64,000 bases of DNA, taken from NCBI GenBank assembly GCA_019449635.1, contig JAGRPI010000018.1:124001-188000 (forward strand), in the 5' to 3' direction. The notes under the pieces were generated by a model. That model was not told the DNA's origin, ran no database searches, and was given only the letters and a program-made list of their open reading frames with translations. The DNA comes from Candidatus Ferrigenium bremense (GTDB lineage: Bacteria; Pseudomonadota; Gammaproteobacteria; Burkholderiales; Gallionellaceae). Each line of letters begins with the position of its first letter. Position 1 is the first letter of the stretch. Of this stretch, positions 14,302-53,179 are shown piece by piece. The translations under genes and the position numbers were made by a program.

Positions 14302-14392
14302 TAACCAGCCACTTGGCTGTTGTGTTTGTTGTCCTGGTGGAGTGGCTATAACCAATGACTTAGCCAGATGGCCGGTTGTTCCACCAGTTGTT
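14302..14392 (+). repeat. Palindromic element A (type 1 + type 2 tandem)
   Basis: Fills the rlpA-rodA gap. Unit 1 starts TAACCAGCCACTTGGCT and ends GGAGTGGCTA; its arms AGCCACT and AGTGGCT pair. It runs directly into unit 2, TAACCAATGACTTAGCCAG, with the tail GGTTGTTCCACCAG. Unit 2 looks shortened in its central stem. The same type 1-type 2 order and the shared TTCCACCAG tail recur in xthA at 52667. Confidence 0.8.
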
Positions 14393-14395
14393 TTA

Positions 14396-15493
14396 TCAAG
14401 TCTTGACCAGCTTTTTATGCGTTTCGATGCTCATCAGCATACCAAAACCCAGCAGCAGGGTCAGCATCGATGTGCCGCCGTAGCTCACCAGCGGCAGCGG
14501 CACGCCGACCACCGGCAGGATGCCGCTGACCATGCCCATGTTGACGAATGCATAGGTGGCGAAGGTCAGCGTGATGGAGCCCGCCATCAGACGCGTGAAA
14601 TAGGTCGAGGCATTCGCGGTGATGATGAAGCCGCGCCCGATCACGAACATATAGATCCCCAGCAGGATCAGGTTGCCGAGCAGGCCGAATTCTTCCGAAT
14701 ACACCGCGAAGATGAAGTCGGTGGTGCGCTCCGGCAGGAAGTCGAGATGGGTCTGCGTGCCGTTCAGGTAGCCCTTGCCGAGGATGCCGCCGGAGCCCAC
14801 CGCGATGGTCGCCTGGATGGTGTGGTAACCCTTGCCCAGCGCATCCTGCGAGGGATCGAATAACATTTCGATGCGATGGCGCTGGTAGTCGTGCAGCATC
14901 GACCACAGCACCGGCACGCTGGCGAGCGCCGCGACGAACACCCCGCCCAACACGCGCCAGCTCAGCCCGGCCAGGAACAGCACATAGAAGCCGCTGGCGG
15001 AAATCAATACCGCGGTGCCCAGGTCGGGCTGGCGCACGATCAATGCCACCGGCATCAGCAACAGCAGCGTGGCGACAAAATAATTTTTCAGGGTGAGCGT
15101 GGCTTCGTGCTTCTCGAAGTACCAGGCCATCATCAGCGGTATGCCGATCTTCATCAGCTCGGACGGCTGGATGGTGATGACGCCCAGGTTCAGCCAGCGC
15201 CGCGCGCCGTGGCTGATCTCGCCGAACAGCGCCACGCCGATCAGCAGCACCATGCCCAGCGCATAGATCGGCACGGCGGTGCGCATCAGGTAATGCAGCG
15301 GCAGGTTGGCGATCAGCCACATGCAGGTGAACGCCACCACGATGTTGAGCAGCTGGCTCAGCGGCCTGCCCCAGCCGGCATTGTCCGCGCTGTATAGCAC
15401 CAGCAGGCTGACCAGCATCAGCAGGCCGATGCCGAGCAGCAACGGCAGGTCGAGGTGCGTGATGAAGCGCAGCCATAACTGGCGTCTAGTCAT
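14396..15493 (-). CDS. rodA: Peptidoglycan glycosyltransferase RodA (MrdB)
   Basis: A 365-residue SEDS-family membrane glycosyltransferase that polymerises glycan strands during rod elongation with PBP2. It has ten hydrophobic helices. Signature blocks are GARRWLNLG, IQPSELMKIGIPLMMAW and, near the end, VVGVPLPLVSYGGTSM. The ATG at 15493 is preferred over a GTG at 15502 because an AGGAGG lies at good spacing upstream. It overlaps the 3' end of mrdA by 8 bases, which indicates coupled expression with its partner transpeptidase. Confidence 0.96.
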   Translation of the reverse strand: MTRRQLWLRFITHLDLPLLLGIGLLMLVSLLVLYSADNAGWGRPLSQLLNIVVAFTCMWLIANLPLHYLMRTAVPIYALGMVLLIGVALFGEISHGARRWLNLGVITIQPSELMKIGIPLMMAWYFEKHEATLTLKNYFVATLLLLMPVALIVRQPDLGTAVLISASGFYVLFLAGLSWRVLGGVFVAALASVPVLWSMLHDYQRHRIEMLFDPSQDALGKGYHTIQATIAVGSGGILGKGYLNGTQTHLDFLPERTTDFIFAVYSEEFGLLGNLILLGIYMFVIGRGFIITANASTYFTRLMAGSITLTFATYAFVNMGMVSGILPVVGVPLPLVSYGGTSMLTLLLGFGMLMSIETHKKLVKT

Positions 15494-21960: not shown

Positions 21961-22016
21961 AACAACTAGCCATTCGACTAGGCCGGCAAAAGACGCCAGC
22001 CAGATCGCTGGTTATG
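21961..22016 (-). repeat. Palindromic element B (type 1), reverse orientation
   Basis: On the minus strand it reads ATAACCAGCGATCTGGCTGG, a GTCTTTT loop, and GCCGGCCTAGTCGAATGGCT. Inner stem GGCTGGC pairs with GCCGGCC using one wobble. It lies in the gatA-gatB gap about 20 bases upstream of gatB. Confidence 0.9.
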
Positions 22017-31469: not shown

Positions 31470-31563
31470 GGCCTGGTAGCTCAGTCGGTATAACCAGCGA
31501 CTTAGCGAGAGTTGTTTCTCGCTTAGTCGAATGGCTAGTAGTTCCTTCAGAGCAGAGGATTGA
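31470..31563 (+). pseudogene. Interrupted tRNA-Phe copy (tRNA pseudogene)
   Basis: Bases 31470-31490 (GGCCTGGTAGCTCAGTCGGT plus A) are identical to the first 21 bases of the intact tRNA-Phe at 31691. A 58-base palindromic element then interrupts the D arm. The tRNA sequence resumes as AGAGCAGAGGATTGA (31549-31563) and ends in the anticodon loop; what follows (CAACACGG) cannot form the 3' half of the anticodon stem. It is therefore a duplicated tRNA gene broken by the element, with the 3' half lost. Confidence 0.9.
31490..31548 (+). repeat. Palindromic element C (type 1), inside the tRNA-Phe copy
   Basis: ATAACCAGCGACTTAGCGAG, a GTTGTT-containing loop, then CTCGCTTAGTCGAATGGCTA and the tail GTAGTTCCTTC. 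The inner stem AGCGAGA/TCTCGCT is perfect. The tRNA sequence on both sides gives the exact insertion point, because the unbroken sequence CGGTAGAGCAG is known from the intact gene. Confidence 0.95.
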
Positions 31564-37844: not shown

Positions 37845-38576
37845 CTAGTAGACAAATGACTGCACGTAGCTTACGGTGTTCTTCGGCCCTGTAGCTCTGG
37901 CGGTGATGCGGATCTGCGGGGTTTGACCAGCTTGGGGGCACGCGCCCTTGCAGACCTCTTGGGGCAAGAGAAGATGTTGCGGATTTGGGTCGTCGATAGC
38001 TTTGCTGAACAGGCAAGCCGTTTTAGGCGGTACGGCTAAAGGCTGCGCTTGCGTACCTGGGAGCGTATTGGCGGTAAGGCAGACGCGCTGGATGATATAG
38101 CGTATGGTGTTGCCGCTGCCGTCGGTTCCCACGAGGACGCTGTCGGTGTTATCCCATTGGACTCCAGTCCCATCGGTCAGGCTCAGGGCAGGGTTGAGGC
38201 TGGAGTAGTAACCCGCCGGGAGATTGTCATTGTTGAAGGGGTGGGTTGGGTCGGTCAATACATTGATGGTGCTGTTCGCCAATTGCGTTGCCGCCAGCCA
38301 GGTCATGGCGGCCTCGACCCCCGCGTCGCCTGAAGAAGTAGCCGATTGCTTGAACGCCAGGTTGCCGGCGATCATGGTGCTGGTATCCACCGAGCGTATC
38401 AGCGCCACCGCCGCGAGCGACATGGCAAGCAGGGCGATGAGGGTAAAGAACAGCACCACGCCGCGCTGTTTCATGGCGTGCACCCGCCCGTAACCAATGA
38501 CTTGGCTGTTGTTCCTTAACAGCACAGTCAGATGGCTAGTTGTTTCATCAAAACGTGGTTTGGACAGTGGTTTCAT
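37845..38576 (-). CDS. pilX: PilX-like minor pilin, with palindromic element in its leader
   Basis: Type IV pilus minor pilin. The body begins MKQRGVVLFFTLIALLAMSL (ATG at 38474), giving 209 residues with a prepilin-type hydrophobic helix. The sequence fits PilX better than other minor pilins because it sits between pilW and pilY1. An upstream ATG at 38576 overlaps the pilW stop (ATGA) and is in frame: MKPLSKPRF, then about 20 residues encoded by palindromic element F (DETTSHLTVLLRNNSQVIGYG), then RVHAMKQRG. I infer that 38576 was the original coupled start and that the element has lengthened the leader; which start is used now is open. Confidence 0.85.
   Translation of the reverse strand: MKPLSKPRFDETTSHLTVLLRNNSQVIGYGRVHAMKQRGVVLFFTLIALLAMSLAAVALIRSVDTSTMIAGNLAFKQSATSSGDAGVEAAMTWLAATQLANSTINVLTDPTHPFNNDNLPAGYYSSLNPALSLTDGTGVQWDNTDSVLVGTDGSGNTIRYIIQRVCLTANTLPGTQAQPLAVPPKTACLFSKAIDDPNPQHLLLPQEVCKGACPQAGQTPQIRITARATGPKNTVSYVQSFVY
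38491..38553 (+). repeat. Palindromic element F (type 2), at the start of pilX
   Basis: The plus strand reads TAACCAATGACTTGGCTGTT, loop GTTCCTTA, then ACAGCACAGTCAGATGGCTA and the tail GTTGTTTCATC. The inner stem GCTGT/ACAGC is perfect. It lies between the overlapping pilW stop/pilX start and the MKQRG start, and keeps the reading frame open. Confidence 0.92.
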
Positions 38577-42384: not shown

Positions 42385-42435
42385 TTGACCAGCGACTTGG
42401 TTGGCGTTTTTTGCCAGCTTAGTCGAATGGCCATG
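42385..42435 (+). repeat. Palindromic element D (type 1), in the cbbM leader
   Basis: TTGACCAGCGACTTGGTTGG, loop CGTTTTTT, then GCCAGCTTAGTCGAATGGCC. The inner stem GGTTGGC pairs with GCCAGCT using two wobble pairs. It lies between the promoter region and the cbbM ribosome-binding site (ACAGGAGAAA), so it is probably part of the cbbM mRNA leader. Confidence 0.92.
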
Positions 42436-52192: not shown

Positions 52193-53179
52193 ATGCGCAT
52201 CATCACCATCAACCTGAACGGGATCCGTTCTGCCGCCGGCAAGGATTTTTTCGCGTGGCTCGCGCAGCAGGATGCCGACGTCGTCTGTTTGCAGGAGCTC
52301 AAGGCTCAGGCGGCAGACATGACCGGGCAAATGCTTGCACCGCCCGGCTATCATGGCTATTTCCATTATGCGGAAAAAAAAGGCTATAGCGGCGTAGGCA
52401 TTTATACCCGGCACAAGCCGGATGCGGTGATCGAAGGGTTGGGCTTTCCCGAGTTCGATTGCGAAGGGCGTTATCTCGAAGCACAGTTTGGCAATTTGAG
52501 CATTGTGTCGGTTTATCTTCCCTCCGGCTCCAGCGGCGAGGAACGGCAGGCAGTGAAGTTCAGGTTCATGGCGGCGTTCCTGACGCACCTCCGCCACATG
52601 ATGACGTCCTCTCCAGTTTTGGATGGAGGTGCGACGCGGCTGCTCCCGCAATCGGCTGGCTTTGCCATAACCAGCGACTTGGCGAATGTGGTTAAATCGC
52701 CCAGTCGAATGGCTATAACCAATGACTTGGCTGTTGCTGTTGGACAGCCTAGTCAGGTAGCTAGTAGTTCCACCAGTAGTTCTATCAGTGACGTGTCACA
52801 GCCGCATCTGCATGAACTGCGCGCCAGCGGGCGCGAGATGGTGATATGCGGCGACTGGAATATCGCGCACAAGGAAATCGACCTGAAGAACTGGCGCGGC
52901 AACCGGAAGAATTCCGGCTTCCTGCCCGAAGAGCGCGCCTGGCTGACCGGGCTGTTCGATGAGACAGGGTTTGTCGATGTTTTCCGCCGTGTCCATCCTG
53001 AGATGGAGGCATACACCTGGTGGTCAAACCGCGGTCGCGCGTGGGATAAGAATGTCGGCTGGCGCATCGATTACCAGATTGCCACGCCCGGCATCGCCGC
53101 GCGGGCTCAGGCGGCGGCTGTCTACAAGACGCAACGCTTTTCCGATCATGCGCCGCTGATTGTTGATTACGCCGATTGA
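52193..53179 (+). CDS. xthA: Exodeoxyribonuclease III split in frame by palindromic elements
   Basis: A 328-residue AP endonuclease/3'-5' exonuclease of the XthA family (normally about 255). Catalytic blocks are intact: NLNGIRSA, LQELKAQ, VICGDWNIAHKEIDLKNWRG, KNSGFLPEERAW and SDHAPLIVDY. About 74 residues (130-203), from THLRHMMTSS to SSISDVSQ, are foreign. They interrupt a helix that ordinarily reads on from KFRFMAAFL to PHLHELRASGRE. The insert is encoded by a CGCACCTCC palindrome plus a tandem type 1-type 2 palindromic element, with no stop codon. Either the protein tolerates a large loop or the gene is compromised; other repair enzymes could compensate. Confidence 0.95.
   Translation: MRIITINLNGIRSAAGKDFFAWLAQQDADVVCLQELKAQAADMTGQMLAPPGYHGYFHYAEKKGYSGVGIYTRHKPDAVIEGLGFPEFDCEGRYLEAQFGNLSIVSVYLPSGSSGEERQAVKFRFMAAFLTHLRHMMTSSPVLDGGATRLLPQSAGFAITSDLANVVKSPSRMAITNDLAVAVGQPSQVASSSTSSSISDVSQPHLHELRASGREMVICGDWNIAHKEIDLKNWRGNRKNSGFLPEERAWLTGLFDETGFVDVFRRVHPEMEAYTWWSNRGRAWDKNVGWRIDYQIATPGIAARAQAAAVYKTQRFSDHAPLIVDYAD
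52584..52633. repeat. CGCACCTCC palindrome inside xthA
   Basis: The arms CGCACCTCC and GGAGGTGCG are perfect complements about 50 bases apart, end to end. They enclose GACGTCCTCTCCAGTTTTGG. It lies at the 5' edge of the foreign segment of xthA, just before palindromic element E. Confidence 0.8.
52667..52790 (+). repeat. Palindromic element E (type 1 + type 2 tandem), inside xthA
   Basis: Unit 1: ATAACCAGCGACTTGGCGAA, then TCGCCCAGTCGAATGGCTAT; inner stem GGCGA/TCGCC. Unit 2: ATAACCAATGACTTGGCTGT, then ACAGCCTAGTCAGGTAGCTA; inner stem GGCTGT/ACAGCC. Tail GTAGTTCCACCAG, then TAGTTCTATC. Both units are translated in frame (FAITSDLANVVKSP, then RMAITNDLAVAVGQP). Confidence 0.95.

Follow-up and report, generated by a model that had tools for sequence, protein, structure and literature searches.

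Two structured palindromic DNA families, here called A and B, have very probably spread through the Gallionellaceae as non-autonomous elements and inserted in frame into the exonuclease III gene xthA, element A and then a dimer of element B. The occupied gene lies in a stretch of 64,000 nucleotides (the window) of a Gallionellaceae genome, G000 (2.41 Mb, 42 contigs). A sequence-only reading of the window had proposed palindromic elements in frame within xthA and, more broadly, protein-invading palindromes outside Rickettsia. The first claim was borne out by extra DNA compared with relatives, dispersed copies and covarying stems. The second is supported by dispersed families with covarying stems and by in-frame copies in many enzymes.

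The xthA gene and its insert

The xthA gene (52193..53179, + strand; identified by ORF, family profiles and structure match) encodes an exodeoxyribonuclease III of 328 aa, insert included. Its frame is intact and open throughout, and the earlier statement that the insert brings no stop and keeps the frame was correct. In the NCBIfam/Pfam profile search, the protein was over the cut-off for TIGR00633 and TIGR00195, each match falling in two stretches, and Pfam agreed. Residues 1-136 and 202-326 aligned to the Neisseria AP endonuclease 2jc5. The modelled core superposed on the Neisseria AP endonuclease 4b5f with a TM of 0.92 by target, so that family match and fold both place the host protein among the exodeoxyribonucleases III. 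A scan of viral contigs for XthA found no relative. G000 also has a second, distant ExoIII-like gene at C42:123049-123804, with 31% identity to the XthA query, and XthA may therefore be partly redundant in this genome.

Comparison with relatives placed the whole in-frame insert at 52583..52801 (+), which is 219 bp or 73 codons (residues 131-203) and consists of an A element (99 bp) and a nested B dimer (120 bp). The insert had been recognized from the sequence; its extent had been given as 52584-52790 and about 74 residues (130-203), with the end 11 bases short. The 5' part of element A, subtype 'E1', spans 52583..52666 (+) by sequence comparison. The E1 left hairpin is formed by the 5' arm CGCACCTCC (52584..52592, +) and the 3' arm GGAGGTGCG (52625..52633, +), both read from the sequence. 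The B dimer follows with hairpin unit 1 (48 bp; 52667..52714, +), defined by sequence pattern and covariation, hairpin unit 2 (48 bp; 52715..52762, +) and a tail of two 12-bp units AGTAGTTCYAYC (52763..52786, +), the last two defined by sequence. The 3' end of element A (AGTGACGTGTCACAG; 52787..52801, +; sequence comparison) is parted from the 5' part by B, which lies within the 3' arm of the third A hairpin. The B portion had been described as a 'tandem type 1-type 2' element. The tandem arrangement held, and the two types proved to be two head-to-tail copies of a single 48-bp hairpin unit, with two 12-bp tails added (52667-52786). The same B-in-A junction recurred in the phosphoglucomutase (PGM), RecJ and IspE ORFs. 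The pattern exceeds chance: a BLAST search of the own genome with the 221-bp stretch gave at least 41 other matches at E ≤ 0.001 (best 1.6e-30), a lower bound with 40 of 124 first-look candidates scored.

Empty and occupied xthA sites in relatives

The XthA query matched 70 of the 76 genus genomes, and 66 were readable across the insertion site. The four unreadable ones were G057 (stops), G067 (partial), G016 and G089 (distant paralogue only). Alignment with close relatives, suggested beforehand as a check, showed an uninterrupted XthA in 59 of the 66 genomes, five of which reach a contig end further on; the segment is not shared by all relatives. The other seven genomes carried an insert at the same codon. 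G021 and G083 had one A element each, G013 had two A elements in tandem, G048 had A with one B, and G000 had A with the B dimer. G008 had a divergent A, and G005 (L030) had a divergent A in an xthA gene with in-frame stops, a decayed carrier. The XthA of JAHRYS010000002.1 (Candidatus Ferrigenium altingense) also contained an insert there. Further out, 16 genomes of other families in the order were compared; 15 had the two XthA halves adjoining, and the 16th (G035) was unreadable at the site.

Structure of elements A and B

Element B combines a 48-bp hairpin and a 12-bp tail. Of the G000 left-arm motifs, 49 had a right arm in range, and 44 of these gave a unit of exactly 48 bp (six more were without a right arm); at other loci the count was 48 of 56 (13 left arms without a right arm). 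The length pattern was searched over 39-49 bases and then over 25-97, and the mode stayed at 48. For 37 distinct G000 units of 48 bp, 97.3% of the stem cells were paired, compared with 82.7% in shuffled controls, and double-change cells numbered 71 against 22; these controls, like those for A, take no account of relatedness among copies. Element A has a first helix, a second helix crossing the first (a pseudoknot) and a small third hairpin. In the covariation set (14 copies of length 72 out of 25 distinct ones found), 98.6% of A stem cells were paired, compared with 87.5% after shuffling. The crossing helix was 100% paired, and 7 of its 8 pairs showed double changes; the first helix is nearly invariant and so is little informative. 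Slid structures scored far worse than the proposed ones for both elements. Both A and B are therefore palindromic with conserved secondary structure, and the strong base-pair covariation among copies marks them as structured DNA or RNA elements and not as a protein domain.

The A insertion measured 99 bp both at HisF and at the xthA of G021. GACACG/CGTGTC occurred near the A ends, and short direct repeats were visible by eye at some sites. A guide function, with the variable inner arm of A copied from the target, is disfavoured; the matching outer arm at HisF was absent from nine same-genus empty sites, which indicates that the arm came with the element. The Rfam search of the window matched two tRNAs and no other family, and an Rfam RNA identity of the insert was rejected on this basis.

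Distribution of the elements

Within the genus, the A query matched 45 of 76 genomes and the B query 61 of 76, own genome included in both counts. B was matched in 117 of 158 family genomes, covering 13 of 15 genera. Among 399 genomes sampled from the order, 11 matched B, seven of them in the Gallionellaceae and four outside. Both families are thus dispersed, multi-copy repeats. The window contains further B copies at 14361-14398, 21961-22015, 31490-31543, 38491-38550 and 42388-42431, all intergenic by eye. Contigs C9, C11, C22, C28, C29 and C30 of G000 terminate within B copies, which shows that the repeats break this assembly.

Other repeat types were also seen, at loci L251, L252, L167, L176 and L195. 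A 'LPSPAGGRG...GEG' type looks in frame in MurU-, FolC-, MutS- and KdsB-like ORFs (MurU by eye), and a 'RPEPVKGQ...GSPRT' type looks in frame in a FadB-like ORF (named by eye). B seems to be nested within the 'LPSPAGGRG...GEG' type in several cases.

Insertions in other genes

The stretches around matches in G000, together with the window, held 62 A/B clusters. Nineteen were in frame inside genes, 34 were intergenic (L198 unsure) and nine touched a contig end or came within 125 bases of one. No gene broken by an A/B copy was seen by eye among the 62; this call and the intergenic and contig-end calls were judged by eye from neighbouring ORF ends and protein motifs. Fifteen of the 19 gene-internal inserts were inside, or between stretches of, curated family matches over cut-off. 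These were XthA, phosphoglucomutase, RecJ, peptide deformylase, AroA-Cmk, GlnD, ValS, SucA, RsgA, HisF, farnesyl diphosphate synthase, TilS, KdsB, LpxK and an epimerase; where a family matched in two stretches, the better one is reported. The other four inserts were weak cases in three proteins, PBP4/DacB, ApbE and an apgM-like protein (twice). ApbE and the apgM-like ORF matched below cut-off only, and the latter was without a Pfam match.

We scanned 27 G000 ORFs that read through a copy. Eighteen had a family around the insert, eight had no match and were taken as spurious, and the remaining one was CoaE, which was dropped as a gene-internal case because the element lies upstream of the CoaE family match. 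Ten ORFs from other genomes gave six clear cases (TrpE, MutS, Snf2 helicase, HrpA, FolC and MurC), a likely one (IspE), two weak ones (CopA and an RNase II-like protein) and one without a match. MurC-like ORFs in L129 (G073), L132 (G064) and L138 (G041) had a common A insertion, the MurC family being checked for L132. G073, G064 and G041 group together as a single clade of the xthA tree, which suggests that this insertion was inherited.

Solved structures put the peptide deformylase (Def) and HisF inserts between well-aligned halves. The HisF halves adjoined (within 16 bases) in all 14 other genomes searched, and the G000 site was longer by 33 codons. The ValS halves adjoined in 6 of 8 other genomes searched, G007 and G012 being not cleanly aligned there. 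In-frame insertion was therefore found in unrelated conserved genes that have uninterrupted homologues.

History of the occupied xthA codon

The history of the site was followed on an xthA tree of 45 of the 66 genomes, built from the core without the insert and omitting the broken gene of G005. This is a quick tree with no bootstrap, and 13 of its 42 inner branches are weak. The six intact carriers needed at least five state changes of the insert on it, and G000, G013, G048 and G008 each paired with a non-carrier. A single carrier clade was rejected on the quick tree (lnL lower by 413, p-AU 2.6e-62).

An alternative history would make the segment a domain of the ancestral XthA that descendants either retained or lost. 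All seven carriers share the codon, and outside xthA the E1 left half turned up rarely, namely in the TrpE of G068 and at one place in G045. Distant carrier pairs also had inserts about as diverged as the core: G000 and G021 were 84.7% identical in the insert and 81.4% in the core, and G021 and G008 72.9% and 77.9%. For such pairs an old insertion with later losses may apply, and the insert could moreover diverge more slowly under structural constraint on its DNA. Against these points stand the absence of the segment from most of the genus, the adjoining halves in other families, the rejected single clade and the dispersal of the same DNA in other genes. The G021/G013 pair also argues against it, with inserts identical at 83 of 85 positions (97.6%) and cores at 629 of 738 (85.2%; Fisher p 6e-4). 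The 60-base flanks of this pair (54/60 and 52/60 identical) showed no greater similarity than the remainder of the gene. The insert is thus much closer than core and flanks, which for that pair argues against simple descent and also against a longer gene segment having been exchanged. A universal ancestral XthA domain is refuted by the genomes without the segment and by the tree, and descent from an ancestral domain in general is improbable. An old insertion with many precise losses retains a small residual probability.

Under the preferred reading, in which A and B are invading elements, A would have inserted first into xthA and the B dimer would then have inserted inside A. As a tentative extension, to which we give real but minor weight, the xthA codon would be a preferred target at which E1 was gained independently several times, with insertion directed by sequence or structure and not random, and the same kind of loop would have arisen repeatedly. 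The five state changes and the closely similar inserts of G021 and G013 point that way.

Tolerance of the insert by the host enzyme

The AlphaFold2 model of the window XthA, built from an alignment of the window protein with 39 of 80 XthA loci, had a mean pLDDT of 72.9 and a pTM of 0.75. Residues 140-202 showed a pLDDT under 50. A helix was modelled at residues 116-138 before the insert and another at 204-212 after it, an arrangement that fits the earlier suggestion of a helix split by the insert. The inserted segment would be translated as a disordered surface loop between two helices, and the enzyme would probably stay active. The core dN/dS was 0.065-0.109 between carriers and their nearest non-carriers (0.065 for the window against G020) and a similar 0.127 for a non-carrier pair, values that also span the time before insertion and include several with dS near or above 1. 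Host enzymes appear to tolerate the extra loop.

The gene could instead be a decaying pseudogene that reads through by luck. The G005 copy with stops and the second ExoIII-like gene in G000 point in this direction, and the former implies that the insert is not always harmless or that the gene is sometimes dispensable. The window gene has a full open frame, the residues invariant across 40 XthA are kept, and the core dN/dS is low. Inserts of this kind also occurred in two further G000 enzymes, ValS and HisF, and, in other genomes, in MurC and MutS, which makes general decay very improbable.

The elements are strong hairpins inside conserved genes, and the segment might be removed by RNA-level excision or skipped by translational bypass, which exists as the yeast mitochondrial byp elements. 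Skipped inserts need no open frame, yet all 19 gene-internal copies, which were partly found by being open, are in frame and open. The lack of Rfam matches in the window beyond the two tRNAs also weighs against such removal, and we regard it as highly improbable. An assembly or binning artefact at repeats is barely credible, assembly error having been named beforehand as a way in which the first interpretation could fail; several G000 contigs do end within B copies, yet the xthA copy lies inside a 234-kb contig and six other genomes have inserts at the same codon.

With A and B read as tolerated insertions, the persistence of gene copies would be explained by lengths that are multiples of three, by several stop-free frames and by selection purging damaging insertions. 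Of six possible frames, the mean number open per copy was 3.16 for gene-internal copies, 2.40 for other copies and 2.03 after shuffling. At about 0.40 open per frame, finding 19 of 19 copies in frame would be rare by chance; because an open frame was part of how these copies were found, the result counts as support and not as a test.

Mobilization of the elements

Y1 transposases were present in 63 of the 76 genus genomes. No A/B copy adjoined any of the five Y1 genes of G000. Any A/B match at all was found in only 3 of 45 Y1-holding loci (L219-L263). Two of these matches were short and weak, 20 bp (L242) and 28 bp (some 2 kb away from a Y1 gene of G000); the third, in G091, was a B lying about 1.4 kb from a Y1 gene. 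Neither of the two placed matches was next to a Y1 gene, the 20-bp L242 match being unplaced. B was also present in G022, G059 and G085 (83, 83 and 95% complete), which had no Y1_Tnp match, a result whose weight is limited by the incompleteness of these genomes. RAYT was therefore not supported as the mobilizer, as the copies did not flank Y1 genes in the loci searched and three genomes with B gave no Y1 match. A and B are apparently non-autonomous mobile elements.

Comparison with known systems

Rickettsia palindromic elements (RPEs) were reportedly described by Ogata et al. in 2000 and 2002. In the open-licence literature searched, we found no published account of A/B-type insertions in Gallionella. 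'Palindromic' in the candidate papers occurred in CRISPR passages only, and the literature on cyanobacterial repeats gave nothing useful.

As far as the passages cited here describe them, RPEs are palindromic, dispersed, divided into several families and located in frame inside unrelated genes, enlarging the proteins (PMC10969869, PMC3733652). A and B share all of these features, with many in-frame copies in unrelated genes. They differ in occurring in Gallionellaceae, betaproteobacterial iron oxidisers, and in their design, a 99-bp pseudoknot-like A and a nested 48-bp hairpin B with a 12-bp tail, RPEs being compared by description only.

The intragenic REPs tagged by GTAG/CGTC (Di Nocera et al. 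2013, PMC3733652) are, in the sections bearing on them, 20-40 bp hairpins, single or grouped inside ORFs, including many DNA synthesis and repair genes, and are discussed with RAYT transposases. In Thauera and R. conorii, clusters of them code for 43 to 82 aa (PMC3733652). A and B are likewise hairpin repeats found singly or grouped within ORFs, but they are longer, and no link to RAYT genes was found. MITEs, in the relevant part of a review (PMC10969869), are short non-autonomous repeats that fuse in frame to host ORFs. A and B resemble them in this respect; they differ in that the search for a parent insertion sequence, which covered Y1 only, identified none.

The kind of element is therefore already known, from the RPEs of Rickettsia and from intragenic REPs of several genera, and the Gallionellaceae case is separate from the Rickettsia one. 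What looks new is the A and B families themselves, together with their pseudoknot-like design, the nesting of one in the other and the repeated occupation of a single XthA codon. With many species, and with empty and filled sites of one gene, direct comparison and simple assays of the enzymes could address how these elements move, how frequently proteins accommodate them and whether any come to be of use. Protein-enlarging in-frame palindromes are best known from the obligate intracellular Rickettsia, and a family of iron oxidisers now shows the same habit.
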